Origin: Phoenix dactylifera
Taxonomy: Eukaryota > Streptophyta > Magnoliopsida > Arecales > Arecaceae
DNA length: 64,000 nt
Assembly (NCBI RefSeq): GCF_009389715.1
Contig: NC_052404.1
Location: 9,074,745-9,138,744 of the forward strand
Direction of reading: 5' to 3'
Shown: positions 3,019-50,215 of the stretch, in pieces
How the letters are laid out: every line of letters begins with the position of its first letter
Position numbering within the stretch: the stretch's first letter is position 1
The notes under the pieces: model-generated
The model's database searches: none
The model's input: only the letters and a program-made list of their open reading frames with translations
What the model was told of the DNA's origin: nothing
Program-made: the position numbers and the translations under genes

Positions 3019-5346
3019 CTAGTGCAAGCCTTGGCGTCTTTTATAATTAACGATGCTTTTAAAGATCATCATAAAGTTAGTTTTTGATGGTAGTATAGCC
3101 GATGCTTTTGTGATACTTTAGAAAGCGTTGCAAATAAAACTATCGATGCTTTTTCGCATCGGTATATATATTAAAAAGCTGTGAGGACCCGTGCGGGCGT
3201 GTGTTTAGTCCCACATCGGTTATTCGCTGGGTAGATCTTGGGTACTTATACAGGATCAAGGAACCCAAATAATACCTTCCGGCTAGCCATTTTGGGTGAA
3301 ATCCTGGGTTGTTACAAATGGTATCAGAGCGGACCCGGCTCATAACCTATGTGGACTAGGGGACACTGCAGCACGGATCTATTGGGGCTGACCATGGGTC
3401 AATCGTGGTGTTTGTGATTAGATTTGAATAGATATGAACCCTTAGCCTGACGAGGACGTCAGGACTTGAACGGGGGGAGTATATGAGGACCCATGCGGGC
3501 GTGTGTTTAGTCCCACATCGGTTATTCGCTGGGTAGATCTTGGGTACTTATACAGGATCAAGGAACCCAAATAATACCTTCCGGCTAGCCATTTTGGGTG
3601 AAATCCTGAGTTGTTACAAATAATGGGATTCGGCCGGCCGACGGTGGCCGGCCGGGGTCAATCCGGCCGAAACGAGTTCGGCCGGAGGTGGGTGAACGGG
3701 GGCCGGGCTTCCAGCCCCGGTCTCCCTCTCTTTCCTTCCTTTCTTCCTCCCTTTCTTCCTCTCCTTCTCCTTCTTCTCTTCATCTCTTTCCGCCGCCTGT
3801 GACAGCAGAGTGGCCGGCGGCGGCTGGCCGAGCGCCGCCGCCGAGGGCCACGGTCGGCCGCCGAAGGCCGACCGGAACCACCAGCCACCCCCCTCCTTCT
3901 TCTTCTTCTTCTTCTTCTTCTTCTTCTTCTTCTTCTCTTCCTTCTTTCTTCTTCTCTTCTTCTTCTTCTTCTTCTTTATTCGGCCTGGGTGTTTTTTCCT
4001 TGCTTTGAAATCCGTGCCTTAAGGGTGAACCAGACTTTGAACCGGGTTTAAATTGTGAACCGGTTCCACCTATTCCATGAATGGGTTTTGTTATGGTCTG
4101 ATCAGACCTGATTTGGGTTGGGCTAGGGACCTGTTTTTGGGCTGAGTTGGGCCTGATTGGATCTGTGGGCTGGTTTGGGTTGGGCCCGAAATCTGATCTG
4201 GACCTGTCATCTGGTTTGGTTCAATTGGGCCTAATCTGTTTTGGGCCACAATTGACTTGGGTTTAAAGAGTTCTGATTTTAGGGTCTATCTTGGATCTTA
4301 GGGGCCCATTCTTGGATCTATGGACTTAGGAGTTTAAGGGGTTGGAATTAGTTTAAATTATGTTTCTTAATTAATTAAATAATTAATATTTATGTTTAAT
4401 CAGGGGTTCGTGATATCTGTGGCAGGAATTTTTAAGCGAACCCAGGTAGGTGACCTATTGCTTTAAAGTAGAATTTTAACATGTATCTTGCATATGTTGA
4501 TGTTATGATTTATTATTGGCATTATGTGTTAGATTTAAAATTAAATATTTAAATTTCATAAATTGTTATATGCTTTACTGATGGGAGTATGATTATGACT
4601 TTAATTTGGAAAGTTGATTTATTGATTTTTAAAATCCGCGTGACTATAGTCTAGGCCCCGCCAATGGGATAATACGTTGGCCCTGTCGACTTGTACTGAA
4701 GAACTAGTTCCGACACCGCGACCACCGGTGATAGAATAGTGGCGGCACAGGGGTGCGTTTTGCTCTTCGGAGCGGCTCGGTGGAGCATGAGTTTGGCACC
4801 AGGGGGTGCGGCACAGTGGTGCGTTGGCTCAGTGGAGCGGCTCTTCGGAGAGTTGTATTGGCACTTCGGTGTAACCATGCCACTGGGTGATGTGGCCGTA
4901 GTCATGCGGTTGAGTTATTTTGAGTCTCGGATCGGGTTTACGGATTGTCGTGTGAATTTTTGGATTCATGAGTTTTAGCTGCTTTTTATATGCATCATGA
5001 CATGTTATATGATGACTTTATTGCATGATGTTGCCTACTGAGCTGTTAGCTCACTCCTACCATTTACATTTTTGCAGGTGATGATATATGATTATGGGGA
5101 TTACGGGATAGAGTGATCATGATGTAATTAGCTAGTAGATATGGACTTTCTTTTGACTTATGTATATATGAACATTTGATATGAAAACTGGAATTTATCT
5201 TTAATTAGTTATTGATGGTTGATCTGATTTATCTGCCTTGCGTGCCTGCGGGGTCCGCCCTGCAGGTGCGCGGCGTCTGCTCGCGCCCCAGGCCCCGGGT
5301 TCGGGGCGTGACAAAAGCATCGGCAATGCCTAATTTTTCTTTAGTG
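3019..5346. mobile_element. CACTA-like non-autonomous element remnant, split by an LTR element
   Basis: The flanks of the LTR insertion (about 3019-3179 and 5314-5346) carry repeats of the type CGATGCTTTT...GCATCGG and the right edge ends TTTTTCTTTAGTG. Both features match the subterminal repeats and TAGTG terminus of the CACTA element at 21266-22825. The left terminus is not clear. The LTR element inserted later, because its AAAGC target duplication lies inside this repeat. Family assignment rests on similarity to the second element and is moderate. Confidence 0.5.
3180..5313 (+). mobile_element. Retroelement with a short TRIM LTR on the left and a long LTR on the right
   Basis: A fossil LTR element flanked by a perfect 5-bp target duplication AAAGC (3175-3179 and 5314-5318). 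Its parts are a 137-bp LTR starting TGTGAGGACC and ending GTTACA (3180-3316), a primer site TGGTATCAGAGC of the initiator-Met tRNA type (3319-3330), about 150 bp of non-coding internal DNA, a G-rich polypurine tract, and a right repeat from 3482. The first 137 bp of the right repeat match the left LTR, but it continues for another 1.7 kb to a GGGGCGTGACA end. The extension has the look of a long Ty3/Gypsy LTR, including a (TTC)n tract. No protein-coding internal region is present. The family name is inferred. Confidence 0.7.
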
Positions 5347-10397: not shown

Positions 10398-10836
10398 TGT
10401 AACAATCCAGAACCTCACCCAAAATGGCTAGCCGGAAGGTATTATTTGGATTTCTTGATCCTGTATAAGTACCCAAGATCTATCCAGCGAATAACCAATG
10501 TGGGACTAAACACACGCTAGCACGGATCCTCACATACTTCCCCCGTTCAAGCCCTGATGTCCTCGTCAGGCTAAGAGTTGAAATTCATTCAAATCTAATC
10601 ACAAACACCACGATCGGCCCGTGGTCAGCCCCAATAGATCCGTGCTGCAGTGTCCCCTAGTCTACATAGGTTATGGGCCAGGTCCGCTCTGATACCATTT
10701 GTAACAATCCAGAACCTCACCCAAAATGGCTAGCCGGAAGGTATTATTTGGGTTCCTTGATCCTGTATAAGTACCCAAGATCTACCCAGCGAATAACCGA
10801 TGTGGGACTAAACACACGCCCGCACGGATCCTCACA
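10398..10836 (-). mobile_element. TRIM element (minus orientation), complete
   Basis: A 439-bp miniature LTR element. Both LTRs are 137 bp (10398-10534 and 10700-10836) and run from TGTAACAATCC to CCTCACA on this strand. The primer site, read on the minus strand, is TGGTATCAGAGC at 10686-10697, complementary to the initiator-Met tRNA 3' end. The polypurine tract lies next to the other LTR at 10535-10548. The flanks GACTG and GACCG look like a slightly mutated 5-bp target duplication. The internal part has no coding capacity, as usual for TRIMs. The two LTRs differ by about 4%, suggesting an insertion of the order of a couple of million years ago under commonly used plant rates. Confidence 0.88.
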
Positions 10837-13800
10837 GACCGGCATAATATAGAACTAAGAGGAACGTATAGAACGTTTTGTGAAAACCATGTTCAATTTT
10901 TAATCCCTGGAGGTAAGAAGTTAGAAGAGTATAGCACAAACTAGGAAGTGCGGAATATGACCTGGACTGTGTTAGCAGGGGGAGTTTCAAGTCGATGCAG
11001 TTCTTCTGAGACAAGCCCAAGCTGGTTGGACACCTTGTTGATATGATGAAGCAATGGATTGCTTCTCAGAAAGAGTTGTTCTTCAGTATTCTTTATGATT
11101 CGGAGTAGAGGATAAATGCAAATAATAGCAGATAAAGACAGTCTTGAGGCCTAACTAGTTTCCACGTCCTGTTGCAATCGGTGGCTATGTTTTACTTGAA
11201 GCTCCTATAGGAATGAGGGCAACCGTTGATTTTACAGTGATGAGATACATTTGTTCCATGACCTTCTTGAAGCCCTTCCATTTTGTTAGTCGAAAACCTA
11301 CATTAGATGGTCATGCCTCTGTTAAAAACTTTATGTTATATGCACATACATTTCCAAGCACATTGGTGCTCGGCAGGGAACGAAGGATGTTATCACCTGG
11401 AATCAGGGAAGAAAGAAAAGATGGCAGCTCAGGAATATTTAATTTTGTTACTTGTCCAATTCTATTAATAGAATTTGATTCAATTATCCTCGTATTACCT
11501 ATAAAAACTATATAGATGGTAGAATAGAGTTTCAAGTCACATAAGATTAGTTTAAGATCTTCCAGATCAACAATTTATAGTTTCTTACTGCATTACTATC
11601 AGTATACTAGGTACATCATAACTAAGTTACCACAAGACCATCCATTTTCAAGATTGTAGCACTCATCATCATCATAAATGAGATAGGAGGGTTGAATTTT
11701 GGTTAAACGTCCCAGTTTGAGTAGAGATGTTCTTTGTAAATTCTATATTAACTCTAATATATGTCAACAAATCCTAGGGATTTGTTTTAAGTTTTAACAC
11801 GCTTCTTGAACGCCTTCAGGTAAAAATAAATGGGATGACATTTTTCAGAGTGAAATTATGAAACAAAGTTTTTATTTTTTTCCTTTTCATTCATTTTATG
11901 TCAATATAAAAGGCAACGAGAACTATGATTAGCCCTTCATTTAAAAGTATACATAGGATGACATTTTTATAGAGTGAAATTATGAAATATCTTTTTCTTC
12001 ATTTTAGGCCCCCGATTTCCTTCTTGCATGCTATTGAGTGGGGAACGGCCATTGGAGCTCGGGAACTCGGAGTCGGCGATGGACCAAGGAATGGAATAAA
12101 GAGTGCTGGGGATTCTAAATTATGTAGGAGATAAAGAAACTTGGACGTAATATTTAGTCTCCTCAAGGACTTAAGATGAAATAAATCCTTTTTAGTGGTT
12201 TTGAACTAGTTCCTGCAAATTCGATAGCCGGGAGCTGTTCGCGATTAAGACTCCTGAATAATACTTATAAGCCCCATTAATAAAAATTGTTTTATGTTGA
12301 GTTTTGTATAACCTGGTGTTCCGATCGGCAGAGCTATTTTGACTAATAATGTCATTGTTACTGACTTGCACGTAACCTGTTGCAAGTATTATAGCCTACC
12401 CCTAATAAAATACAAAATTTTACTTCATGTTTAAAAAGAATATATATACTTTTTTTAGAATATTGTATATTATTATATAAATATCATCTATTGGTATATA
12501 AGTAAACATGATATCATATAAATATTGTTTAGTACAATTTAGGTTGTCTAGAAGAAAAAAAAATAATCTTAATATATAGAGTTAGATTATATTGATAATA
12601 ATTTGGAGTCGACCATCTTAGTTTCCTTCATGGTCCTTTAACCTTATTGAAGAGCAAAACAAATATAAGAACACATAACAGAGATCATCCCTTTGACAAA
12701 TTTACTTTAATATTGTAATTGATTGTTTAGCGAAAGATCAACGTGGAAATAATACGAGAAAAGTAATTTTCAATTTTTCACATAATATTGACAAAAAAGA
12801 ATGAAACACATAAATGAGCCATGGAATCAAAGAATGTGCAATTCAATTTAGAAATTAGATAAATAATATGCACTAGACGAAAATAGAAATTTGAAAACAA
12901 GGGGAGAGCCTCGGAGGGAAAAAGAAAAGGCTGATAGCAAAACCTACACATATCAATTGTTAACGAGATAGTGAACATTCATCATATACTCCTTCAAATT
13001 AGGTATGCTGAATTTTTCATCAAATGTTGAGACTGTAACCATCCATCCGATACTTTTTCAAGCAAATAAGTGAGATAATGTCACATGCATTACTCACCAT
13101 TGCATAAGTAAATCAAATAAAATTATGATGATAAGCATGCTACTGGCTTATGATATCATAATCTCCAAATACCAGGTCATTTTGATGAAATGGCAGAGTT
13201 TTGAATTTATTGCAAGCTAGTGTCCAGAATGTGATTAAATATGTGATGCTTTCGTTAAGCTTATGATCACGAATAACACAGAATATCGTGGCATCTCTAT
13301 TCAAATTTGAGTAGCATTTAGAATGTGGAAATATGTGACTAGTTTAAAAGAAGCAAGCATTTGATGCATGGTTTTAATTTTATTTGAAAAGAGAATGAAA
13401 GAAAAAGAAGGGACGTGAAGGATAGATGATATCATTTTGCGAATACAAAATGAATGCAAGCGTCGTGACATATTTTTTTTAAAAGAAAAAATTGATGTCA
13501 GTAGTCATGGAGATGAACAATAAACACTGGCCGCTAGTGACCTAAGTGGGCGAGCTCTTTTAAAAGAAAAAAGTGAGAGACGGATTGAAAAATCCAATCA
13601 AGGGACAAGTTTGAAGTTTTGACTACCCAACCAAAGCCCTACTATGTATGAAACTTAAATTAAGTCTTAATCCCTCACCTGATCATGATATATACACTTT
13701 TCTCTTCTTGGAGTCTTTTCAGGAGAGTAGGTGGAGTCTACATTCATTGTTCTTGACCATTTCTCCTAGACAAATGTTAGGTGTGTGAGGTTAGAAAACA

Positions 13801-17106: not shown

Positions 17107-18157
17107 ATGTCCCCAGCAAGGTAAGGAACAGAAGAAAAGAATCTTCTCGTCAGAAATACAAAGAATCCAAACCCAAAGTCTATGATCCTCTTTACCTTTT
17201 TTTTTTTCTTTCCTTATTTGATCCTGGAAGCCATGAAGACTTGACCTTCTTCAATCTTTTTGCTCATGGGTAATCTCGAACTGACACCACAGACCCCATC
17301 ACTAGATTACTTACATCTGGGAAGGAATTTTGTTTATGGGTGGTCAAAAAATACACCAAAACCCTAATCCTAGGTTGCTCTTCCCTTGACATCCCTCTAA
17401 CTTTTGTTTTCCCTTTCTTGATTGCATCACAGGGAGAGGCTTGATGAAGTAGGGAAGAAGATCAAGAGGGAACCCGATGTTCCCGATCGCAAGGCACGCG
17501 GTCACCTGCCAGGTCCGGTGGGAACCTCAAACGCCATCACTCCATGCGCCGCTTGCAAGCTCTTGAGACGGCGATGTGCCCACGAATGCCCTTTCTCTCC
17601 TTATTTTCCCCCTCACGACCCCCAAAAGTTTGCTTCAGTTCACAAAGTCTTTGGTGCAAGCAACGTGTCAAAGATGCTAATGGTAAAAAGCTCCTACTCT
17701 TTCCTCACATCCATCATCTCCATTAAATTCCTTGGTAATTTACTTTGCTGATTCTTATAATTAGGAGGTTCCGGAGAGCCGGAGGGCCGACGCGGCCAAC
17801 AGTCTTGTTTATGAAGCGAATGTGAGGCTGAGGGACCCCGTCTATGGGTGCATGGGGGCAATCTCGGAGTTACAGCAACAGGTCCAGGCCTTGGAGGCGG
17901 AGCTCGCAGCGGTCAGAGCTGAGATATTGAATTACAAGTACAGGTCTGCGAGTGCTACCGTCCTTCCTACATCTCATGCTGCTGCTCTTCTAGCCTCCTC
18001 TGGGGAGGTCTCGGTCGCCGCACCGCCACCCATCACAACTCCTACGGCCCCTCCTGCAGCACCAGCCGCCGCATCTTCCTCTTCTATGTACACCGCTGCG
18101 TCGAGCTCCACGGACTACAGTTCCATCGCCAGTGAAAATGTTCCATACTTCAGCTAA
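17107..18157 (+). CDS. LBD15-like: LOB-domain transcription factor, LBD15-like
   Basis: Class I LBD (AS2/LOB) DNA-binding protein of 218 aa, expected in the nucleus in organ-boundary or vascular development. I assign three coding exons: 17107-17120, 17433-17682 and 17765-18157. The first is only 14 nt (ATGTCCCCAGCAAG) and, after splicing, gives MSPARERLDEVGKKIKRE, which lines up with the N-terminus I recall for Arabidopsis LBD15. The zinc-finger-like C block is C43-X2-C46-X6-C53-X3-C57. The GAS block FASVHKVFGASNVSKMLM (71-88) continues into the next exon and ends RLRDPVYGC. A coiled coil L124-X6-L131-X3-L135-X6-I142 follows. The C-terminus is Ala/Ser/Pro-rich. All splice sites are GT-AG. Intron 1 is 312 bp and intron 2 is 82 bp. 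Confidence 0.9.
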
Positions 18158-20097
18158 AGATTTCGATTTTATTTAGTCATGAACCATCTGAAATAAAGGA
18201 AGAACTTGTTGGAGGAGTACCTTAATTTTTCTCCTGGATTTCAGACTTAGTTGATCGTTAGAAGCTCATACTTACTTAGAACGTGTTGTTGAATTATGCC
18301 TTTGATTGTCTCTGATGCCTTAGCTTTCTTCCAATATTTCTTTTCTTTTTATTTTTTCCCCTACAACGAGTTCTTCCAATATTTCATGGTTCATGATCAA
18401 AATTTTAGAGTTCATTTGTCTTACTATGCATCCGAGCTTTCCTTCTTCTCTTATTGGAAAACTAATAGTTAAGTTGTTCCGATTGCATCCGAATGTTCCC
18501 TAAATTAGTCAAGTAAAATTCTAGTTTTTTTTTTTTTTGTACGAAGAATAGGAGGTGGGGCCAGTGGGCCGGTGTACTCCTTGATCTAGTCGACTGAACT
18601 GAACTGGGTCTAGGGTTTCCTGCCATGTTTGCCTGTGCCCCTACAATCTCAGGTTCTCAGCATTAAAGGAGAGGAGACATAAGGTACGACTGATTTGATT
18701 CTCCCCATGCAGTCGGGAAGCTCCTGAGACTTGCAAGGGTTCGTCCGCTTCCTCGGAAATCGCAATACTAATCCCTTCGGAAATGGTACCGGCAGCGCTG
18801 GACTCTAGAAAACCAACCTACCACCGTCACACACTACGATGTTGGAGGCCGTCTTCCTTATTTTGTTTTCATATTACACAACTAGTTTTGCTTTATAGCA
18901 ATGTATATCTTTGTTCTTGTTTTGTGGGACCAAAGAAATTAGTCGAGTTAAAATGATGTGGTGCAAGTCTTGTTGGAATCAAAGTTGTTGATGCATTTCG
19001 TGACATGGCGAACTGAAGTATTTCTAGGATAGCACGACAATTGAAGGAGCTTTTTTTTTCCTTCCTTTACTCAGAGCCACCCAATGCTGCATAGTACATG
19101 GTTTCACACCTAAATAAAAGTGATTCTCTCGCCAAACAAAGGTGGAAGGCCAGAAAAAAGACGGAGTGGTGGTTGGCAAATACAGTAGACTATATGTTAT
19201 TATGCATCCCCATAGTATTCTCAAAAGAAAGAAAGGAAGGAAGAAAGCATGCATTTTATTGGTTGGTCCAAGAACTTGCCAGATTGGTTTCGTTAGCGTG
19301 TGGAGTTTCACTAGAGGGGTAGCGAATGGTGAAGGAGAGGATCTCAGAAGCATTACAAAATAATTTCGAGGAACTGTATGACTTTGCTCTCATCCATTTT
19401 CATTTATATGTCGTTCAATTATACATGAGAAGTAGCTCCCATGAATGTGACAGGATTAGGTCTTCCATCGTGGTTGCTTGAAATGGTCCCATCTTAGCTT
19501 GTGCTTGCTGAACTCCAAGGACAAGATAGTATAAAAAAACGGATGGCCTGCCCATAAAAAACTTTCTAATCGTATTCCATATTCCTCTTCTCCAATAGCT
19601 CAATGCCCCTTCACTTGCATGACTTGCATGAGAAGATCAGATCCCTTCAACTCATAAGATTAAGTCTTATGCTAGCTTTGCATAAGACTGAGCCTTTGGT
19701 GGAAAACAGAGGACTTACCTTGCTTCTTCTCAATTCTTTAAACTTCTCCATCTTACAGAAGACGGGGGCGTGACGGAGGCAAAATGCAAACAGGCCCAGG
19801 TCAAACTCTAATTCCTGAGTCGTAGTGTTGGATTGGTTTGAGACGGGCAAGTCTATTGGAATCCAAGATCTTGTAAACTCTTTTTTGAGGGTTGTTCCTA
19901 TTATAATATGTGGGATGTATTGTAATACCTACAACTACTCAACTAGAGCTGATGATGGGCTGGGCCTCGAGCCTACACTCTATTCATTAATCAGATTTCC
20001 AGCTAGGCTTATGTAAAATTTGATATTTTCTATGCCACAGTCCAACCCATGTTCAGCTATGCCTACAACTAATTTGAACATTTGATTTAAATATTAA
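18158..20097. other. Intergenic, no gene recognised
   Basis: 3' flank of the LBD gene and AT-rich DNA. Frames around 19020-19360 are open on both strands but carry no motif. Confidence 0.5.
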
Positions 20098-20319
20098 GGA
20101 TCTGTTTTGATGATTAGGTTGAAAATCCAATTGTATTCATGGACTGGGCCAATACAACCAGCAAAGTTATAGGATTACAGCAGACCAATACTCCAAAGCT
20201 ATTTCTGGGTACCTTTGAAAATAAATCTAGCTCATTCTATAATTCTATGATTTTACTGGTTATACTGGCTCAATCTACGAATCCAATAATATTTTTAGCC
20301 TAATCATCCAAATGTGCCC
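20098..20319. mobile_element. Tourist-like (PIF/Harbinger) MITE
   Basis: A 222-bp element flanked by TAA on both sides (20095-20097 and 20320-20322). The imperfect terminal inverted repeats run about 24 bp: GGATCTGTTTTGATGATTAG at the left and, read in reverse, GGGCACATTTGGATGATTAG at the right. It has no coding capacity. The 3-bp TWA duplication fits the Harbinger superfamily. Confidence 0.65.
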
Positions 20320-21265
20320 TAATATGTAAAAGAAACCACCATAAAACAATGGAGTAATATCATAAAAATTAGAAATTTCTAAAGGCTACTACGTTAGGTG
20401 CCAAGAGTGTTACATGAACCAGGCCAATTCTATCATTACTCCAAAACGTCCCCGAACCATCTCATGCACAGCCCTGAAGTTGAGTCCCTTTTTGGAAGGG
20501 CCTGGCCATGCATCCAATTTAGACTCCAACTCTTCTTTCAATATGGCATCTCTATAACAAATAAACCTTATTCCGGTGGCATCAGTATAAAAATAGCACA
20601 TCAATTTAAGCTGCTAGCTCTGCTCAATTTGTCACACGATATATTTCAGCTGCTTTTTGTGCTTTCTGCTTGGTATAACATTGAGATAGTGAAACCTCCA
20701 TGACTCTCTTTAGACAACGTAGTGGTGCTGGCGGGTGATAGATGGTCATTAGAGGGGACGATGTAGAAGATAGCCTTCAATAGTTCTTTTCATTTTTTTA
20801 GCAAATCATAGTTTTGTTCTCCTTTTCCCTATTCTAGTGACTTTGATCAACCTTTAATCGAGAACTAAACTGATTATCTTGTCACAAGGTGATTGGCTCC
20901 AGATTGGGCCAATTCCTAATTAATTCTGTACTGTTTTTTTAACGAGGTTTCAACCGCATATTAATTGAATATCTCCTAATTTTATAATGTGAGTTTTAAG
21001 AGTTTTCAGATTGGGCATACTCTAAATTTTGTATATACTTTGCTCAAGCTTCGCTTACTAACGTCATATTTTTTTTTCTTTTTCTTTTAGCTCTGTTTTC
21101 TCTTTTCTTTTTTTTCATGTGTGTGGCTGAGTGTGATACGTAGTGATTTTTAGCTTTTGGTCCGATTCTACTAAGACTGGCTGAAAGAAAACCAGAGGCC
21201 GTGCATTGTTCGAAGCATGCTCCAGTGGCTAATCCTGCCAACTTGCCAAAAATAGCCGCTACAAA
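20320..21265. other. Intergenic, no gene recognised
   Basis: Short frames only. No recognisable domain or repeat termini. Confidence 0.5.
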
Positions 21266-22825
21266 CACTACAAAAGAAAAGATATCTCCCGGCGGTTTTT
21301 TTGGTCTATACCGACGCTTTTAAGCGTCGGCGAATTTCCATCCCATGCACCCAAAAGCGTGGGTCAGACGTCGGGCAGGTGGGCGTGGGTCCGGTTTTTG
21401 CCGACGCTAAAGGAAAGCGTCGGCAAAAACAGAACTTTCCCAACGCTAATAAAAGCGTCGCTAAAAGATTCAACGCCGACGCTTATAAGCGTCGGCATTA
21501 GCCACCTGTTTTTTAAAAAAAAAATTAAAAAAGAAAGAGGAGAACGGGCATGGCGCTCGCTGGCCTGGAAGGAGAGCTGATGGTTCATGGCATGGAAGAA
21601 GAAATTTTACAAAGATTCCTTGAAAGAGGAGCCAATACAAATTGAATCTATCAAAGATCTAAAGGAACCGGGGCAAAGATGAACCATAAAGGAACCATAA
21701 AGCAAAGATCTAAAGGAACCATAAAGCAAAGATGAACCTGGAAGGAGGAGGATGATCTCAATGTCGTCGATCATCGAGATCCTCTTGACTGATAAGAGCT
21801 CCATCCGACCTCTGGCCTCCGGCAAGGAGGAGTCCACCCTGGAGTCCTGCACCAAGTGCCCCTGTTTCGAAGCCCAGGTGAGGACCGCAGGGACCCCTGC
21901 CTGTGCGAGATCCTCACTCTCCGGCACGTTGAGGGAGATGTAACACGAGAATCAACGCCTCGGTCTGGAGCTGCTCCCCAAAATACACCAGCTGGACGAG
22001 GTGCTTGGCCCCTCCGGCTTCAATGATGGCGGCTGCTCCCTCGACACGATGGCTTCCCTCTCGTCCAGCAGCCGCACCAGAGGCCCGATGATCCGCGTCT
22101 CCGTCGCCCGGAAGGTCTTCGACAGTCAGCCGAGAGCAGTGATGCTGGAAATCAGAAGATCGTCGAAGACGCCCTTGTCGGCGATCCGGAGGAGCTGGTC
22201 GACGACCGCCTTGGCGGCAGGCGAGGTGGGCTTGAAGGCGGAGTGGCGGAGGTCAGGGTTGTGCTCGGCGACGCAGTCGATCTCCATGATGGACATGGCA
22301 GAGTAGTAGCGCACGTCGCCGGAGCCCTTCTCGAGGAGGACAGCGAAGCAGAGGAGGGCGCGGGACTCGGTGATGCTCTTGCAAATGGAAGGGTTGTTCT
22401 TGGCCAACTGCCACAGCGCCATGGCCGCCATGGCCTTCATCTCGGCCTTGGTGGCCGGGTCCTCCACCTCCCTCCCAGAGAAGACGAGGAATGGGCGAGA
22501 GAGATGAGGGCGGTGGCCGGGAAAACGGAAACCCGAAGAGAGGAGGGAGGAGGGATGAGAGAGATGAGGCACGAGGGTAGAGAGAGAGAGACTGGTGTGT
22601 GAGGGAAGCTTCCGATGGGGGTGGTTAGAAGAGGGTTGGGTTTGGCTTCCGACGACGCTTTTTAGCGTCGTCTTAGGCCCGAGACTACGCCGATGCTTAT
22701 TAGCGTCGTCTTTTTCCGACGCTTTTTACAAGCGTCGGCAAATTTTGACGCTAGAACGAAACTTGCCGACGCTTGTAAAAAGCGTCGGCAAAAAAGCGTC
22801 GGCAAAACCGACTTTTTCTGTAGTG
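21266..22825. mobile_element. Non-autonomous CACTA element carrying a captured gene fragment (Pack-CACTA)
   Basis: A 1,560-bp element that starts CACTACAAAAG, ends CTGTAGTG and is flanked by the 3-bp duplication AAA (21263-21265 and 22826-22828). These are diagnostic CACTA (En/Spm) termini. Both subterminal zones, about 21315-21500 and 22650-22810, are filled with forward and inverted copies of CCGACGCTT and AAGCGTCGG, the expected transposase-binding repeats. No transposase is encoded, so it would need help in trans. The middle (about 21600-22500) is not transposon sequence but a minus-strand piece of a host armadillo-repeat gene. The clean ends suggest a fairly young insertion. Confidence 0.9.
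21600..22500 (-). pseudogene. ARO-like: Captured ARMADILLO REPEAT ONLY (ARO)-type gene fragment inside the CACTA element
   Basis: On the minus strand this encodes pieces that match the C-terminal half of plant ARO armadillo-repeat proteins: EVEDPATKAEMKAMAAMALW, ICKSITESRALLCFAVLLEK, SAFKPTSPAAKAVVDQLLRI, FRATETRIIGPLVRLLDERE, EAGGAKHLVQLVYFGEQLQT and PESEDLAQAGVPAVLTWASK. The pieces fall in more than one frame. A TGA stands where the family has a Cys codon after ITALG, and about 20 residues before AIIEAGG are missing. It cannot make the full protein. The order of blocks is preserved and no introns are evident, so one contiguous stretch was probably captured. The donor gene is not in this window. 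Confidence 0.85.
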
Positions 22826-23605
22826 AAATTCAACTTTTGTAAAGCAAAATCGTATACCACTATGGATAGCTACCACATTATTAATCTTGAAGACGAACAA
22901 CTCTCACTAGTCTCAGGAGATGGAGGATATAGGAGGCACTAGCTTTCTACCATTTGCTCAGGCGATCAAGACATGGACAACGCCAACACTTCGCTGTTCG
23001 CTCTGAAGAGGACAACTGCTAGAGCTCTATCCACTCGGAGAGGGGGTGGAGTGCGCGCTTCCTCTTTCTTTTCCTTTCTAATGCTGAGGTGGCCAGGCAT
23101 TCAATGTGGCAAAAAATAATTGGTCTTATATACTATTGAGCTAGTATACGGGCCCTAGGGTATAATTTCTATTTGAACCAACCAGAAGGGCATGCATTGA
23201 GAAAAGACAGTTTTCTTGTCCAAGAAGGAAACAGAAAATATATGAAGCGAAGAAAAATAAAATAAAAAGCAGTTGGAAGTAGGTATATAGTGATTTCAGC
23301 AGCTACTGCCTAGTTGACACATTCATATTTCATTCCTTAAATTGGAGTCATATTTATTTGATCCATCATGTTTGAGGTTTACATTTCTGTAGCAACTCAA
23401 TATATTAGGCTTTTGTCGCTACCAATATGCAGGTTACAGCATGTTTCTAGGCAAGTTCTTCTCAAAAGGAAGAATGAAAATGTTTCTAGGCAAATTCTAG
23501 CAGACACATGATGCTACCCGCTTGCATTGAAATTTGGAACAGGTCAGTTTGGCATGATTAACTAAATAAATGCCTCACGTGAGTAGTTTAGTGTATGTTG
23601 CGCGT

Positions 23606-23952
23606 TCTAAATACCGTTTCTGATGCAATTAGAAGTCTCGGACAATATGCATTATTTATCTAGCTTACGGACCCGTAGCAGGTTTATGAAAACAGAGAGG
23701 TTTCATGAATAGTCAAGAGGAAGGTGGTGCCGCCGGAGGTCAGATGGGCTATTGATAATGGCCACTCCATCGATATACTCGGGGAATGTTGGGTGACCGC
23801 GCAGCCGATCAGTCGCCTGCGATCTAAATACCGTTTCTGTCTTTCTTATGCAATTAGGAGAAGTCGCGGACAATATGCATTATTTATCTAGCTTACGGAC
23901 CTGTAGCAGGTTCATGAAAACAGAGAGGTTTCTCGAATAGTAGAGAGGAAGG
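23606..23952 (+). repeat. Local direct duplication in the peroxidase A promoter
   Basis: Segments 23606-23724 and 23823-23952 both run from TCTAAATACCGTTTCTG to GAGGAAGG. Peroxidase B has only one equivalent segment (about 44415-44545), so the extra copy arose, or was lost, after the inverted duplication. It lies 300-650 bp upstream of the start codon. Confidence 0.8.
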
Positions 23953-24190
23953 AACCTGCAGACTTGTCGAGATAGGTTCGAAACCACGTAAATCTAGCAG
24001 ATTTGTCGCGTCCAATCACCGGAACCTGCAGACTAAGTAGAAGGAAGAAAAACAACATCTGTAGACGAAGTCTTTTTTCTGATATAAGTCGGAGGAAACA
24101 TCTATCTATAGACGAAGTCAAGCACTCTCTTTTTACGCTATCGAACCTCGTATGCTGCCATGGAGGAATAAAAATATCTTAACTCTCGTC

Positions 24191-24199
24191 TACATAAAG
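24191..24199 (+). promoter_or_regulatory. Degenerate TATA box of peroxidase A (TACATAAAG)
   Basis: It sits about 60 bp before the start codon. The twin gene has TATATAAAG at the same place, so A carries one substitution in the core of the box. Confidence 0.65.
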
Positions 24200-24254
24200 A
24201 CCCGTCCAGATCCTTTAGCTAACAAGAGCGCCATAGATATCATCACAAATCCTC

Positions 24255-25978
<1,724 letters not shown>

Positions 25979-26454
25979 TTTGGTTTGCTTGGTGGCTTTA
26001 TTATGAAATTCATAATTGTGTCTCATATATATATTAAACTATGTTAATTCATAAATTTGCCGTCTTTTTATTATAATCAACGGCCATGAAGATTTGTTGA
26101 ATGTAATGGACATAAATTTGCTGTCTTAAAATTATTAATGGTAATAAGATCTGTTGAACGTAATAGACCATTTTTTATAATGATGGTGTGATGGTTTATT
26201 GCCTATAAACTCCAACTTATCTTAATGCTATAGATAAATATTCCTATTTTTGTTTTTATTTTTGAAAAATACGGTGGTAATGCCACACCTAAGTTTTAAT
26301 CAAGAGCAAGTCCTTGAGTATTGGTTCCAACGACAGGACCCAACTCTTGTTGACATTTTGAAATTTGTGTGCACATCCATATAACAAGCAGTATATTTAA
26401 GAGAAAATCCGGAGCTCTAGCAACACCATTCCACCTCTTCTTCTTCTTTTTTCG

Positions 26455-26732: not shown

Positions 26733-29700
26733 CTAACCTAGAGAACTTGGGGGCGCATCCACGACGTCCTTCCCTTCCATCTGGACGCACAGCGCCTTCC
26801 CCTCCGTCATCTCCAACGTCTCCTTCTTGTAGTTGTACATGATCGAAACCCAGAAGAAGACCACCAGATTGATCACTGAGATAGCCGTCAGAAATCCATA
26901 GTAGTAGTCCAGATGCGAGTCGTTCAAGTTGTTCCCGATCCAGCTCTTCCCTCCACCTCTCCTCGTCAACTTATCGACGACGGTCACCAAAAGGCTGTTG
27001 AGAAAGTTGCCGACGCCGATCCCGCTAGTAAAGAACGTCGTCCCCAAGCTCTGCATGTCCTCTGGGGACTGATCATAGAAGAATTCCAGCAATCCGACGG
27101 CGTTGAAGACGTCGCCCACCCCTAGCAAAATGTACTGAGGCAGCAGCCAGAAGATGCTCATGGGCACGATGTCTTTGGGGCCATTCATACCGTGCGACTT
27201 GATGACATGCATTCGTTTGAGCTCGACGAGGGAGGCAACAATTGTCACGAGAACTTGGAAGCCAAACCCGATGCCGAGCCGCTGCAGGAGGGTGATGCCT
27301 CGGGGGTTCCCGGTGCGGCGCTGCATGAAGGGGACGAAGTAGCGGTCGTATATGGGAATGGAGAGGAGCATGGAAATGATGATGAAGCTCCCGAGAGATG
27401 CGGCGGGGATCTGGAAGCCATGGCCGAGGACTCGGCGCAGGGTGGTGCCTTGTTTGACGAAGAGGGTGCCGACCTGGGCCGTGATGATGTTGGGAATGAG
27501 GGTGGCGAGCCAGATGATGCTCATGCCAAACACCAGCTTAGTCTCTTCCACTTGGTTCACTGTGCAGGCTTTGGTCCCTTCCTTCAATGCTGCTTTGTCT
27601 AGAAACCTATAAACTACTCAGGATCACTAACAGGGTGATGAAGTGAGCCTTGTTGAAGTTCTCTAGACATGCCCATGAATCTTGCCACGTACTACAAATA
27701 AAATGCGATGCTGTATGCCATTCTATGGGGGTTGGGTTGCCTTCATGCCATCAATTTTCCCGGCTTGAAGAACTTAAAGACTTAGGCTTGCACATTAAGG
27801 TCACGGCCAGGCTCAAATAACAAGTCCTAGGTGATTTTAGACTTGAATTAGGCTTCTACTTCCGTAGAAAATAATTAGAGATTTCTTTTTGAAAAAAACC
27901 ATTAAAGAGAGGACTACTGGCTCTCTCTTTTTTTCTTTTTTTTTGAGGGTGTGTATATAGCAGGGTGTATTTTTCGTGCGATAGAATGATTAACCTTTCT
28001 TTGCATGAATTCACCGTTGGATCATCAGTTGCTTGCTTTGATATCTATATCAACAGATGAATGATGGATATCCAAGCGCTTTTTGATCTATGCGGTGGGT
28101 GATCCAGTGGTGTTTTCCTGCAAAGAAAGGTTAATCATTCTTTTGCGCTAAAGATCCAGTTTGCTTGAGTCTTTGTCATGATACTCCAGTCAAAGACATG
28201 GCCAAAGCCCAGGCCCAATAAATTAGTCATTGGTAAGGCTTAAGTGAACTCGGCCTAGAGAATATCAATTGGGTTCAATACTCATCCGACTATCTGATGG
28301 GTCAGTACAGCACCAGCCTTTGGTCTCATGCCAATTAGCTCTAGAAAAAGTTTTTTACAGATGGCTCAGTGAGTATAATGTAAATTCGCTTGATGCCAAT
28401 TAGGCCTTTCTTTTCTTTTCCTTTTCACTCTCCAATGATGTCAGGCAAGAATTTTTATGAATGTCAGGGCTTTCAAATTTGTGGGAGAGGATTTTCTTTT
28501 TTTTTAAAAAAAAAGCTGTACATTTTATTCGAATAATTACTTTCAAATAAGAATCTTTCGCAAATTCCTTAAGCATTGCTCTTTCTAAAATGTTGTAAAA
28601 TTTGATTTGATTCTGCTAAAGTTTCAAGCAGACAACTGCAGTCGTTTCTCATGATTACGTTCTCCACTACTCCCTTCAGGTCGGCCACCGGAAAGCGCGG
28701 TTTTATTCTCCATTAACACCCCTACTATACCCACCCACCAACCTATCCGACGTAGCAGAATATTGGTGCAATTCAGGTTGGGCTTCGCCCCTTAATTGGG
28801 AACCACGTCCTTGCTTTACTCCGCATACTTCCGAACTCAACGTCAACTATCACCGTTCAGGTGTCAAATTATTACGCAATAAAATTTATTAGATGAACCA
28901 GATCCACGACGAACCTGTGATAAAAGGTATCCATTTAATAATAATTTTATCTTAAGATGAAATAAATCCATCTGAAATAATTTTATCTTAGGTCCACAGT
29001 AAATCTGATCCATCTCATGCAGCCCATCTAAATTTGCTGCTGCAGGCTGTACTATATTCAGCACAGTCCAATTCTCGGACACCACGAACACAGAACAGCC
29101 TTACTCGGAAAATCCATGGTGCAACCATTTGGGTCGCAACTGAGTAAATCCTAGGGTTTTCTACGTGACAGAATTAGTACGTTAATATACCAAAGCTTAG
29201 AATCGCCCGCTTCGAGCGATGTATGAGAGTTTAATTACCTGAAAGCTGAAGTGTGATGCACTCGCCGCTTTCCGGCGATCATATAATGCTGCGGCTCGAG
29301 CTCGTAGAGCGCCGCCGGGTCATCAGGTAGCTCGAACCCTCGATTAGCGAAAGCGGTAGAACAAACTTTAAAAATCTCCTTCGCTGGGCTCTCAGTCCTC
29401 CTAACCTTGTGCCTATAATTCGGCGTGCCAAAGTAGAAGATGAGGAGGGAGACCATGAGCCCGCCGGTGGGGATGCCGTACCCCACGCCCCACCCCAAGT
29501 TCTCCTGGATGTACACGAGGCCGAGGGTGGCGATGAGGGCCCCCATGAAGGTACTGAACATCCACCAGTTGAAGAAGGACAGCTTTAGCTTCTTCTCGTC
29601 GGGGTCGAAGTCATCAAACTGGTCCGCGCCGAATGTGGATATGTTAGGCTTGGTCCCCCCAGCTCCGATGGAAATGACGTAGAGTGATGCAAAGAAGAAG

Positions 29701-32700
29701 GCGATCTGAGATGGCGTCGCCTTGCTGCAGACCCCATGGGTGCAAGTTGGCCTTAGAGACTTGAGGGAGACCGCCATTGTCAAGAGGACCATGCCCTGCG
29801 GCAGCAGAAGGAAGAGGGTGTAAAGGTGTTGCAGCAAAACACGGCCCACATACCATTAAGATAAAAGTGGCACTACATGGGTCAGCAGAGATCATCGACG
29901 TACTGCTCGCCAAATTATCTTACATTATTAGGGATTCCACAACCTTTGGAGGCCTGATTCCACTTGAAGAAGGAAAAAGAATAAAACCAAATTGAAGTTT
30001 ATGTGATACTAATTCTAAAACTTATTTTCTAGTTGCTGGTTCGTTGTGTTTTCTTATCACGGGTGTCCTCTTCTATACATGTCATTAATGGAGCAAGGTC
30101 TATCATGTTTCCCTGATGATGAAGCAACTGTAGGCCCTAGCCGTGTTGGGGTAGGTTGGCTTTCCCCGTCACCAAGCTGGTGGGTGGAAGGAAAGCAACT
30201 CCGGGGAATGAGACAATTGATATGAGGATTGGGTTCATCACTCCCTTGTCTTTCAAAATTAAATCATAATGAATGTGCGAACCAGAACAAACTCGTGCAT
30301 TTTCCATCTCCAATCATGCATTCTAGTTGCCATCCAAATCATAGGCCCGTCCTCCCACAACAAAAATAAATAAATAAATTACTCCCCGTGATGTCACCTA
30401 GCTTCCTGTCACACTCCAACCTTCACCAGCCGATGATGAAGCTACATGTTCTTATTACACCATGCTTATTTCCTTAAATTGGAATTATGGTTGCAATTAT
30501 CACTTACTGAGACGTAGATGAGAGCCGAAATTGTGAAGGTCCAGAACCGGCCGAAGTAGGTATCGGCGATGTAGGCTCCAAGGATCGGCGTGATCCAAAC
30601 TGAACCCGACCAGTTGTTAACGCTCCTCACTGATGAGACTGTGTCCTCGTGTAGTTGGGTTGTCAAATAAACCACCAGATTTGAGGCGATACCATTGAAG
30701 GCCATCCTTTCAAATGCTTCATAGCCTGCGTGATCATTTGAGGAGACAAAGTAGCTTTCATGCAAACCTATCTAGTAAAAAGAAATTTTTGGGAAAAAAG
30801 TACTTCATTATAGCTACAAAGAAGCACAACAAGGATCCCTTCTATACTACTCTAACCACTCAACTAAACTTCCATGATCTCTCTCCTTACCAAACATATA
30901 TGAAGGATATGGGGAGATTGTAAGACCCGATGCTTTGCCCTATCCACCACTGAAATAGGCAAAAAGGGAACAAGTTCTCCTCTTTGAGTCGGAAGAGGAG
31001 ACCGTCTCCGACTCCTCTTCATCTGCATCGGAGGCTAGGAACCCTAGCCTCCATGCCTATTTAAACGAACCTCACTCCACCTTCGAAGCCATCCTCCATC
31101 GTAGCCGAATTTGAGAGCAATTTTTAGTTTGTTACCACGAAGGATCTCGGGGATTTCACCGTCGATCCGGCCGGGAGAGCTCGCCGAAAGTGAGTCGTGG
31201 TGGTTGGCATTTCTCTCCTTCTTTTGGTTGTTATGCCACCGTCTATTTGTCGAAATCCGGTCAGTGAGTCGCCGGAATAATCGTGAATAGTGTATCCCCT
31301 ATTTCATCTTTTTCTTCCATTTTTATCGATCGTTGTCGGTTGTGGCACGCCGCCGATGACGCCGTGGGTTGTCGGCTGCTAGGATCATCGACCACGAGCG
31401 ACTGCTGCCACCAAGTGCCTATTTCAGGAAAGAGAGGGAGGGAAGGAGAAATGGCCTTATAGCTCTCTTCTTCTTCTCTTATTTTCTCTCTCCTCTCTCT
31501 AGTTCTTCTCTCTTGTTCTCTCTCTTTATCATTTTTTCTCTCTCTACATATTTTAGTTGATAGTGGCGGGTCTAGGTACTTTGTAAAGTCGGCCTGACCA
31601 TTAGAGGGATCCCGACCAATGTTGCGTGACCTGAAGCTTCGAGCCGGTATTGGCCTTGGGTCGGCATTATGCAGCTGTACGAAGGGTTTCGGGTTAGCAT
31701 TATATAACCCTATGAGGGGTCATGAGTTTATGACTTGACTTCTCGCTCTATCTTGGTGTTTTTTCTCTCTAGTTGATCCGAAAAAATTCTTGGTTAAAAA
31801 GATTTGGTAGTAGCTTTGTTTGAGATTGCTACGTGATGGTGGATCCTTTAGTGGACTAGTAGAGGGTTCTGGGTTGTAAAATACCTCAGATAATTTTTTA
31901 TATTGATTTGGTTCTATAGGAGAACAATCTTTAGAGCAAGAAAATGTCGAGTAGGGTTCTGCGCATCTGGATTCATAGATCGCGGTGTGGACAGGTGATT
32001 AGTCTATCTGGATTGTTGGCATAGAGGTAAGAATCTTTGTACACTCGTCTGTTTGATTATAGATATTTTGTGTATATATATGATATGCTAATGATTAAGA
32101 TAAGTAAGATGTAAGAATTCTTTTAAAATGGTTTTTTCATTAAACCATATTTTAATCATGTATGCTTGTAATTGATACTATGATGGATGTACATATGAGT
32201 ATAATTTATATTTGCATAATCAGACTAATGGATGTGGTGCTTTGAAGATTTTTAGTGGGTTGTAAAACTCACACCATTTTTTTTTCTTTTTCTTTCAGAG
32301 TTGCAAAAAACTTGGTACTTAGTTGTAGTTAGAATTAAGGATAAAAAGATGAATAGACAGGCTATTACTGAAACCAACTGGATGATTAAATTTTATAATT
32401 GTTCTAGTTTTATTATTTGTTATGGATTGAGATCATTATTATTTAATAATATTGAGGTTGTAATAAATTTTCAGATATTGCATATTCTCTAGTGATTTGT
32501 CCTAGATAGTATGCGGCCATGTCATATAGCCGATCTAGGTGCTGGGTTTGGGGAGCGACATAGATAAAGCTAAAGATACACGCGTGTTATGTTTAGAAAC
32601 AAATCCGTTTGTGGAATCTAGGGGAAAGTATTCCTTCAATCAAAAGAATAAAAAAGCATTCATTTATTTACCTGTAAATTAAGATGATTAATTCGAAACA

Positions 32701-33713: not shown

Positions 33714-34235
33714 TAAGGCTGCAAATAGGTCGGGTTGATCCATGATCCGACTTGCTTAGACCTGATCCGGTTCGACTCATTTTGGAGGACCCATGGGTCC
33801 GGGTCGGATCCTAAAATTGGATCCATTTCATTTCTTAGGTCGAGTCTGGGTTTACGGAATTCAGATCCGACCCGACCATTTAAAATTTAGGTAATTTTGG
33901 ATTTTAATTTTACGATCCGACCTTATCCAACCCGAACCTGTAAAATTATTTGGGCTCGCGACTGCACCTCGCGGGGGTGCAAATACAAGTTCTGAAGCTA
34001 TGGATGGGTTAATCCGAATCGGATCCGAACCGGATCCGAACCGGATCCAAATTTTTCGGGTTGAGTCTGGGTTACACGGATCCGACCCGACCCGAATGAC
34101 CTATTGGGTCAAAAATTGTAGCGGTGGATCCGACCTGACTCGATCCCATGGGTCCAAAATTAGGACTCGACAAGAAATCGGGTTAGGTCGGGATCACTCA
34201 TAATCTGATCCGATCCGACCTATTTGCATCCCTAA
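33714..34235 (+). mobile_element. TCGGGT-rich MITE, copy 1
   Basis: A 522-bp element with terminal inverted repeats TAAGGCTGCAAATAGGTCGG and, in reverse, TTAGGGATGCAAATAGGTCG. The interior is dense in GGATCCGA, GACCCGACCCG and their complements. A second copy in the same orientation is at 45652-46137. The flanks TGTCAAG and TACCAAG could be a decayed 7-bp duplication. It has no coding capacity. Confidence 0.75.
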
Positions 34236-35289: not shown

Positions 35290-36075
35290 ATAAAGCACTT
35301 CATCCTTTACTATCCATCCACCTATATAGATCTCAAGGCATTCTGTCCTCTATCATTTATTGGTCTGCATAGATCTTAAAGCGTTTCATTCTCTAACATC
35401 CATCTACCTACACATATCACAAAGAGCTTCGTCCTTTTTATCATCCATCCGCTTGCACAAATCTCAAAGTACTCCATCCTTTGCCATCTATCTACTTATA
35501 CGGACCCCAAAATACTCCATCCTCTATCATTCATCCATCCGTATAGGTCTCAAAATGATCCATCCTCTATCATCCATCCACATGCACAGCTCCCAAAGCA
35601 CCATGTCCTCTATCATATATCCATTTGCACAGATCTCAAAGCGCCTCATCTTCTATCATCCATTTATCTACACGGATCTCAAGTGCTTTAGTCTTTATAA
35701 TCCATCCACTTGCACAGATTTCAAAGCAATCCATCCTCTTCATATCCATCTATCTGCACAAATCTCAAAGCACTCCATCCTCTATTATCCATTCACTTAT
35801 GCAGATCTTAAAGTTCTCCATCCTTTGTCATCTATCGACCTACATAGATCTCAAAGTACTTCGTCCTCCATTGTCCATCTACGTGCATAGATCTTTATTT
35901 TCTATTATTCATCTACTCCGCACACATCTCAAAGCACCACATCCTCTATCATTCATTCGCTTGCACATATCGGAACACCTCATCCTTTCTCATTCGGCTA
36001 TATGCACACATCTCGAAGTGCTATATCTTTTGTCATTCATTCATTTGCGCCGATCTCAAAGCGCTCTGTCTACGT
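35290..36075 (+). repeat. Degenerate minisatellite, about 18 units of about 43 bp
   Basis: The recurring core is CACAGATCTCAAAGCACTCC, followed by ATCCTCTATCATCCATCCA and a variable linker. I count 18 cores, each diverged. The array keeps two overlapping plus-strand frames open for 160-176 codons, but they are by-products of the repeat and give a low-complexity translation. Confidence 0.85.
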
Positions 36076-41262: not shown

Positions 41263-42019
41263 ATCTTTGGAAAGAACAAAACTCACCTTCTTTTTTTTTT
41301 TTCTTTCTTCCTTTTTTTTGTTAGATAACAAAACTCTACTTCGTCTTCTATAATACATTGAGTTTTGCTGTGGCACATTTTATTAGTTTCACGAAAAAAA
41401 GTGATGATCCCTGGCCGTCCTTTTCATGGGGGTAAAAAATAAAAATACGTATGCAACGGTTACCAGTTATTGCATGGCTGCTTCTCTTTATGTTTGATTA
41501 CTTTATTCAACCCGTCCTCCTCCATCTATACCATGCCCGTCTCCGCCGCTTGGTATCCCTGCCCCACCTCCTCGCTGCCACCTCTGCAGCCCCTCCACGA
41601 CCCACGGCGTACGCCACCTCCTAGAAGTGGATAACACCACTCCAAGATTGCCGGTTTATCCGAGAGGCAATGGAGGTGGTGGAGAGAGGGGATATGCAAC
41701 CAAACGACTGGGATTTGAGAGCAGCCATGTTTGTTGATTGGAACTGCTCGGCAGCAAGGACGGCAAGCACCGACGGCAAGGTGGAAGAGAGTGGAGGTAA
41801 ATTTTGAGCTAAGGTTTTCGCAGGAGAGGTGGCTCCTACCAATGAAGGGGGTCGAGTAGGCAACCACCGCACGATAAGGAAGGAGAAGGAGGAGGGGATA
41901 AGAGGAAGAGGAGGAAGAAGGATTTTAAAATAAGAAAGAGTCTTTGTAGTAATTACGTAAAAACTAGCATCTAAAACTGGAGCTCTTATGTGAGACCTAT
42001 TCCCGGCATTATGCTCCAA
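41263..42019. other. Spacer next to the inverted duplication, no gene recognised
   Basis: Minus-strand frames at 41526-42019 are open but have no motif and overlap each other. The segment ends exactly where the peroxidase inverted arm begins. Confidence 0.45.
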
Positions 42020-42299
42020 AAATAGGAATATTTATCTATAACATTGAGATAATTAAGTTAGAGTTTATACACAATAAACCATCACACCATCATTTATAAA
42101 AATGGCCTATTACATTCAACAAATCTTTATTACCATTAATAATTAATTTTAAGACAGCAAATTTATGACCATTACATTCAACAAATCTTCATGGCCGTTG
42201 ATTATAATAAAAAGACAGCAAATTTATGAATTAACATAGTTTAATATATATATGAGACACAATTATGAATTTCATAATAAAGCGACCAAGCAAACCAAA

Positions 42300-44015
<1,716 letters not shown>

Positions 44016-44070
44016 GAGGATTTGTGATGATATCTATGGCGCTCTTGTTAGCTAAAGGATCTGGACGGGT

Positions 44071-44079
44071 CTTTATATA
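44071..44079 (-). promoter_or_regulatory. TATA box of peroxidase B (TATATAAAG)
   Basis: Canonical box read on the minus strand, about 56 bp before the start codon. It aligns with the degenerate box of copy A. Confidence 0.75.
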
Positions 44080-45394
44080 GACGAGAGTTAAGATATTTTT
44101 ATTCCTCCATGGCAGCATACGAGGTCCGATAGCGTAAAAAGAGAGTGCTTGACTTCGTCTATAGATAGATGTTTCCTCCGACTTATATCAGAAAAAAGAC
44201 TTCGGCTATAGATGTTGATTTTCTTTCTTCTACTTAGTCTGCAGGTTCCGGTGATTGGACGCGACAAATCTGCTAGTTTTACGTGGTTTCCAACCTATCT
44301 CGAGAAGCGATGACATAACCCATATTTTCATTCTCAAATTACACAGCCCATCTCATGAAGCATACTGACTACATTTCAGTATCACTGCGAATATATTAGA
44401 AGTGGACTGGGCAATTTGGAACCCACCTTCCTCTTGACTATTCAAGAAACCTCTCTGTTTTCATGAACCTGCTACAGGTCCGTAAGCTAGATAAATAATG
44501 CATATTGTCCGCGACTTCTAATTGCATCAGAAACGGTATTTAGAACGCGCAACATACACTAAACTACTCACGTGAGGCATTTATTTAGTTAATCATGCCA
44601 AACTGACCTGTTCCGAATTTCAATGCAAGTAGGTAGCATCATGTATCCGCTAGAATTTGCCTAGAAACATTTTCATTCTTCCTTCTGAAAAGAACTTCCC
44701 TAGAAACATGCTGTAACCTGCATATTGGTAGCGACAAAAGCCTAATATATATATTGAGTTGCTACAGAAATGTAAACCTCAAACATGATGAATCCAATAA
44801 AAATGACTCCAATTTAAGGAATGAAATATATATGAATGTGTCAACTAGGCAGTTAGCTGCTCAAATCACTAACAAACTATTGCACTATATACCTACTTCC
44901 AACTGCCTTATATTTTATTTTCCTTCGCCTTCATTTATGTTCTGTTTCCTTCTTGGACAAGAAAACTGTCTTTTCTCAATGCATGCGCTTCTCATTGGTT
45001 CAAATAGAAATTATACCCAAGGGTCGTTATACTAGCTCAATAGTATATAGGACCAATTTTTTTTGCCACATTCCATGTTTAGCCACCTCAGCATTAGAAA
45101 GTAAAAAAAAAAAGAGGAAGCTTGGGCTCCAACCCCTCCCCGGGTGGACAGAGCTCTAGCCGTCCTCCTGTTCAAAGTGAACGGCAAAGTGTTGGCGTTG
45201 TCGATGTCCGAATCTCCACCTACATCCTCCATCTCCCGAGAGCGCCACCGAATAACTCCCAATCAGAGGTGTCTCGTCTCAAATGACTCTGCCACAAAAT
45301 CCTGGGTTGGTAATAAAATTAGCCTTTTCCATGGGGATAACATATTAAATCAATCAGCAATGTAAGTAATAATTAAATTAAATTAGCCCCCGTT

Positions 45395-45476: not shown

Positions 45477-46240
45477 AAGAGAGTCGTCATTGGGATAGGC
45501 GACCTGAAATCTTCCATGCATATTTTCTCAAGGATACTTGGCTATGCTGAAACTAATTTACCAATCAAGTATCTGGGATTGCGGCTTCAAGGCTCGTGTG
45601 TCAAATTGGTAACTCTTGGAGGAAAAAGATAGAGAAGAACTTAGCATCATGTAAGGCTGCAAATGGATCGGGCTGACCCATAGAGCTGGGTCAGGTCCTA
45701 AAATTGGACTCGTTCCATTTTTTGAGTCAGGTCTGGGTTTATTGAATTCAGAACCGATCCGACACAACCCGACCATTTGAAATTTGGATAATTTTGGATT
45801 TTCAATCTTATGATCCAACCCGAATCTGTAAGATTATTTGGTCCTACGGGTCGCAGCACACTGGGGTGCAAAAAAATTGTGAAGACAGAATGGGTTGACT
45901 CGAAACGGACTCAACCCTAACCCAAACTGGACCAAATTTTTTTGGGTTGGGTTCAGGTTATATATGGCCTCGACCTGACCCGAATGACCCGTTGGGTCAA
46001 AAATTGTAGTGGTGGACCCAACCCAACCCTTTATTGGGTTGGGTCTGGGTCCAAAATTAGGATCTGAACAAGGAACCGGCCGGGTTGAGTCAGGATCACT
46101 CATTACCCAAGCCGATCCGACCCATTTACACCCCTAACATCATGGAAAGGGAGGGTTCTAACATTAGCTAGCAGATTAATGCTAGTGAATGCAGTTTTAA
46201 GTAAAATTCCAGTGTTTTGGATGGCTGCTTTCTTCTTACC
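45477..46240 (+). mobile_element. LINE reverse-transcriptase fragment, split by a MITE
   Basis: The left part reads IFSRILGYAETNLPIKYLGL and the right part SWKGRVLTLASRLMLVNAVL followed by SKIPVFWMAAFFLP. These are consecutive blocks of a plant LINE reverse transcriptase. The 486-bp MITE at 45652-46137 lies exactly between them. No other LINE part is seen, so this is a short dead fragment. Confidence 0.8.
45652..46137 (+). mobile_element. TCGGGT-rich MITE, copy 2, nested in a LINE
   Basis: Same family and orientation as 33714-34235, here 486 bp. It is flanked by the perfect 7-bp repeat CATCATG (45645-45651 and 46138-46144). Termini are TAAGGCTGCAAAT and, in reverse, TTAGGGGTGTAAATGGGTCG. No coding capacity. 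Confidence 0.82.

Positions 46241-48879: not shown

Positions 48880-50215
<1,336 letters not shown>

Follow-up and report, generated by a model that had tools for sequence, protein, structure and literature searches.

The 64-kb window of Phoenix dactylifera DNA analyzed here (64,000 nucleotides of contig NC_052404.1; coordinates count from the first letter of that stretch) contains, at 21266-22825, a 1,560-bp interval with exact limits that carries the ends and subterminal repeats of a CACTA transposon and, between them, a broken piece of what is likely an ARO-like armadillo-repeat gene. We consider it highly probable that this interval is a non-autonomous CACTA (En/Spm superfamily) element of the Pack-CACTA kind. 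Its 5′ end is CACTACAAAAG, from 21266, and its 3′ end is CTGTAGTG, up to 22825. The 5′ terminal inverted repeat (TIR), CACTACAAAAGAA, occupies 21266-21278 on the plus strand and its partner, which reads CACTACAGAAAAA on the minus strand, occupies 22813-22825; 11 of the first 13 bases are alike, CACTACA stands at both ends, and the element is flanked by a target-site duplication, AAA, at 21263-21265 and 22826-22828. These CACTA ends and the AAA duplication had been proposed in the initial annotation and both are borne out. The window holds no other CACTACA/TGTAGTG pair with identical 3-bp flanks. Taken by themselves the termini are a roughly 1% event, suggestive rather than conclusive, because a same-flank pair spaced less than 3 kb apart arose in 3 of 300 dinucleotide shuffles (11 of 300 with a spacing of up to 20 kb); CACTACA alone is not above chance in the window (6 copies against 5.24 expected).

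The subterminal repeats are what establish the identity of the element. A left array at 21309-21498 consists of CCGACGCTT and AAGCGTCGG motifs, several of them in palindromic pairs, with 8 copies at up to one mismatch and 5 exact; a right array at 22650-22807 has 7 and 5, respectively. All 10 exact copies of CCGACGCTT in the 64-kb window lie inside the element, five at each end, compared to 0.19 expected by chance and at most 2 in any of 100 shuffles. When one mismatch is allowed, 15 of the 23 copies in the window fall in the element (8 left, 7 right), none of them between 21500 and 22650, and each lies at most about 230 bp from the 5′ end or 175 bp from the 3′ end. The confinement of this motif to two subterminal arrays settles the assignment to the CACTA group and substantiates the dense subterminal repeats noted earlier. 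Folded as single-stranded DNA, both ends are exceptional, with z = -7.2 for 21266-21519 and z = -9.8 for 22641-22825, and in neither case was any of 200 shuffles equally strong; the right array also contains a long inverted repeat at 22711-22793. At 21311 the sequence CCGACGCTTTTA differs from the maize TNPA site, CCGACACTCTTA, at only two positions (10 of 12 alike). A 22-base pattern of the subterminal palindrome had no match in viral contigs, and an Rfam search of 20000-24000 returned no match. Within the element, a six-frame Pfam search with stops read as X returned no family at E up to 1, and on this basis we consider the element non-autonomous. Altogether it combines CACTA-type TIRs, a 3-bp duplication and subterminal arrays of direct and inverted repeats, as in CACTA (En/Spm) elements, with two hallmarks of Pack-CACTAs, namely host-gene-derived sequence between the ends and no detected transposase domain.

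The cargo lies wholly between the two arrays. Between 22476 and 21771 its minus strand reads as the C-terminal end of a captured armadillo-repeat gene of ARO-like type, now degenerate. The first of its pieces (22476-22036, with an in-frame TGA read through) matched SPAG6 at E 9.7e-06 and PF16 at E 7.5e-05 in the PDB (whole-sequence values), and an earlier open reading frame (ORF) version of this piece gave 1.2e-05 and 8.7e-05; both are armadillo-repeat proteins. When the first piece was reversed or shuffled (one control each), the lowest E-values were 0.48 and 0.24, to unrelated proteins. A second piece, 22048-21971 on the same strand in a different frame, found 30 matches in the PDB with a cut-off of E 10, the best at 6e-12; "Armadillo" appears in the names of 12 of them, another 3 are called Arm000.., and the code names of most of the remainder belong to that same designed series. 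A very strong match came from the C-terminus of Arabidopsis ARO1, represented by a working sequence that was not drawn from a database and was set down after the window translation had been seen: it gave one strong alignment, at 22473-21796, with identity in 127 of 248 columns (51%), 203 bits and E 3e-62, whereas none of 201 controls, comprising 200 shuffles plus the reversed query, scored more than 26.6 bits. A working N-terminal half of ARO, obtained in the same way, produced no match better than chance in the window, its top score being 21.2 bits (E 2.4). These data support the earlier claim that an ARO-like armadillo sequence has been captured. The gene part had been placed at 21600-22500, the right location although slightly wide of the armadillo-like coding sequence. 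It had also been described as antisense, a term that holds relative to the window strand only, as the element has no detected transposase gene by which to orient it.

Several observations weigh against this identification. The PDB E-values overstate the armadillo evidence because they sum many weak repeat matches and no single stretch is significant in either piece; for the two best chains, with the earlier ORF, the single-stretch values were at least 8.6. The PDB controls cover the first piece only, leaving 22048-21971 without one. The main piece, 22476-22036, had no Pfam match in searches of the ORFs, of three pieces and of six frames; the second piece reached Pfam Arm at E 0.048, below the cut-off, and a third piece, 21945-21796, had no match to Pfam Arm or in the PDB. 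An AlphaFold model of one piece (147 amino acids, no alignment) contains helices only and is unreliable, with a mean pLDDT of 47.7. The name ARO rests on the working sequence and on the initial annotation, itself made without database searches; judged from sequence, we consider membership in this family likely. Attempts to find relatives of the armadillo piece yielded 9 pattern-matching stretches in viral contigs and 170 in genome contigs, none of them confirmed, and a distant-mode search of a plasmid collection gave no match, nor did a literature search with a peptide from the fragment.

The ARO-like fragment is a 5′-truncated, broken copy that resides entirely within the element and is not a gene, because the working N-terminal half was not found in the window and the remainder carries four lesions. 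These are an in-frame TGA (22126-22128); a shift of frame around 22030, where by eye about 20 residues of the working ARO1 sequence are missing; a frame change between about 21971 and about 21945; and another at about 21795, the frame changes having been judged by eye on a three-frame translation. The fragment ends in YQSRGSR followed by a TGA at 21771-21773. A collinear ARO locus around the element, which by the initial annotation would have spoken against capture, is not seen in the window: the armadillo sequence lies inside the arrays and no N-terminal half was found above chance with the working query. Along the element's minus strand the first ATG stands at 22440 and opens an armadillo-like stretch of 104 codons (22126-22440), and the strand opposite the fragment has an open frame of 191 codons. 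The fragment differs in composition from its flanks, with a GC content of 0.63 compared to 0.37 and 0.41 and a CpG observed/expected ratio of 0.80 compared to 0.55 and 0.68. No cellular function is indicated for the cargo.

Two further stretches make up the interior. Adjoining the 5′ side of the fragment is a pyrimidine-rich stretch at 22477-22640, which on the minus strand (22478-22640) is about 80% C+T over 163 bp and lacks an ATG; it resembles a plant 5′ leader, which is our judgement and not a database match. Between the fragment and the left array, 21520-21770 is rich in A (in T when read in the ARO sense) and includes a 24-bp tandem duplication at 21687-21733.

How else could these features have come together? 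The possibility that there is no transposon, and that chance ends surround an ordinary ARO pseudogene, draws on the shuffle counts for the termini and on the unexceptional frequency of CACTACA given above. However, ten of ten exact CCGACGCTT copies sit at the two ends of one interval, the hairpins at both ends exceed all 200 shuffles and the remainder of an ARO gene, as sought with the working query, was not found in the window; we assign this explanation a vanishingly small probability. A more substantial alternative is that an ARO retrocopy, or another processed pseudogene, inserted into a pre-existing small CACTA that itself captured nothing. The fragment is 5′-truncated with an apparently native stop codon, like a truncated retrocopy, and its coding sequence from 22476 to 21771 has no evident intron. 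ARO genes are largely intronless, so the lack of an intron is uninformative on this point. What disfavors a retrocopy is the lack of a poly-A tail in the ARO sense: the plus strand of the element has runs of at least six T at just two places, 21296 and 21509, both remote from the stop codon. In addition, of the eight families of direct repeats of at least 12 nucleotides in 21200-22900, only those of the subterminal motif are found on both sides of the fragment. We regard insertion of a processed copy as unlikely.

A refinement of the Pack-CACTA interpretation, rather than a replacement for it, is that the element is a mosaic in which a second gene contributed its 5′ leader, captured as 22477-22640 and placed in front of the ARO fragment, with a possible transcription unit running from right to left. 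The strong C+T bias directly before the fragment, the lack of an ATG there and the start of the 104-codon armadillo-like frame at the first ATG all favor this idea. There is also precedent: capture from several loci is frequent among maize Pack-TYPE elements, and most so in Pack-CACTAs (PMC8903248), and the soybean element Tgm-Express1 holds five fragments (PMC1947982). However, 3 of 3,192 sampled windows are equally biased (at 3861, 3881 and 16921, of which two overlap and none lies in the element), so the composition is not unique and a second captured locus stays a suggestion. Furthermore, purine/pyrimidine tracts may come from slippage, the pyrimidine-rich stretch could be part of the donor ARO gene, and open frames of similar size arise by chance in GC-rich DNA, as the 191-codon frame on the opposite strand illustrates. 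We therefore view the mosaic as possible but on balance doubtful. One could go further and propose a transcribed two-locus chimera in which the leader drives a putative armadillo peptide of 104 codons (minus strand, 22440-22126) or matching small RNAs; either would interfere with the donor ARO gene and hence with polar growth, for instance of the pollen tube, a process to which ARO1 is essential according to PMC4404733. Such a chimera is in our estimation very unlikely; effects through putative small RNAs or chimeric transcripts, as raised in the initial annotation, are in general terms possible.

We favor a model in which the element is a Pack-CACTA that acquired its cargo as DNA, and we envision the following scenario. 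The ARO-like segment would have come from a donor gene as DNA, probably through joint mobilization of two neighboring CACTA insertions with donor DNA between them, as in the Pack-TYPE model. An autonomous relative elsewhere in the host would have supplied the CACTA transposase, cutting at the TIRs, while a TNPA-like protein could have bound the CCGACGCTT arrays and assisted excision. Insertion at the present site would have duplicated AAA, and the captured segment may later have decayed as a pseudogene. The literature describes similar steps: the proposed source of new DNA in Pack-TYPE elements is the mobilization of neighboring insertions as a single unit (PMC8903248, PMC13317346), and TNPA binds subterminal repeats, with non-autonomous copies mobilized by proteins supplied in trans (PMC2613891). 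A point against this model is that an unoccupied site was not found in the window, where a pattern of the joined flanks had no match.

The surroundings of the element include a large inverted duplication, 22911-26252 and 42017-45240, that carries a class III peroxidase-like gene. Its arms align at 97.7% identity over 23963-26252 and 44307-42017 and at 89.5% over 22970-23727 and 45208-44423. The homology ends near 22911, about 85 bp outside the element, and because it stops short in this way the second copy shows no empty site. Pfam peroxidase was detected in the ORF at 25406-25978 (plus strand), which has a counterpart at 42300-42872 (minus strand), and a diverged peroxidase ORF lies at 49628-50215. 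Other host genes near the element are one or two POT/NPF transporter ORFs (Pfam PTR2) at 26733-29855 on the minus strand and a LOB-domain ORF at 17765-18157 on the plus strand. The window also contains repeats of other kinds. A unit of about 302 bp recurs at 3179-3621, 10398-10839 and 51477-52222, with one copy inverted and the copies about 79-92% alike, and looks like a dispersed satellite-type repeat. A second dispersed repeat, at 33788-34235 and 45675-46137, is 71% alike between its copies, the latter of which is rich in GGGTC/GACCC words. A degenerate tandem array at 35291-36064, with a period of about 86 bp, has long open frames with repeated peptides.

The capture of gene fragments by small CACTA elements had been presented in the initial annotation as comparatively little known, a view we do not share: the Pack-CACTA class and chimeric transcripts from CACTA cargo are already published, and the present element is a clean but ordinary example. 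It changes no concept. Its value is that of a compact, sharply delimited CACTA gene-fragment capture with recognizable cargo, which offers a starting point in the search for its sister family and donor gene and in tests of the neighboring-insertion model in the host plant. A limited literature search found no published CACTA with an armadillo gene as cargo. The closest parallels are the Pack-CACTAs of Arabidopsis, rice and maize, which, according to PMC8903248, likewise consist of non-autonomous CACTA ends around host coding DNA, capture by mobilized neighboring insertions and are mostly of low copy number. The cargo of the present element is ARO-like, which sets it apart from those described there, and its duplication is 3 bp, as in soybean Tgmt*, rather than the 5 nucleotides given in that source.

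The Chenopodium CACTAs (PMC8978399) have also captured host gene fragments but retain coding domains of their own beside the fragments (AP2, Neprosin), whereas no transposase domain was found here. Tgm-Express1 of soybean (PMC1947982) similarly has CACTA ends and host gene fragments, and its fragments can be spliced into chimeric transcripts. It is 5.7 kb long, carries five fragments and resides in an intron of F3H; the present element is 1.56 kb with one identified fragment, and the stretches scanned around the site of its insertion revealed no gene. Maize En/Spm and soybean Tgmt* are autonomous (PMC2613891), unlike the present element with its lack of a detected transposase domain. In the architecture of its ends, by contrast, it matches Tgmt*, which likewise has imperfect 13-bp TIRs and a 3-bp duplication (PMC2613891).
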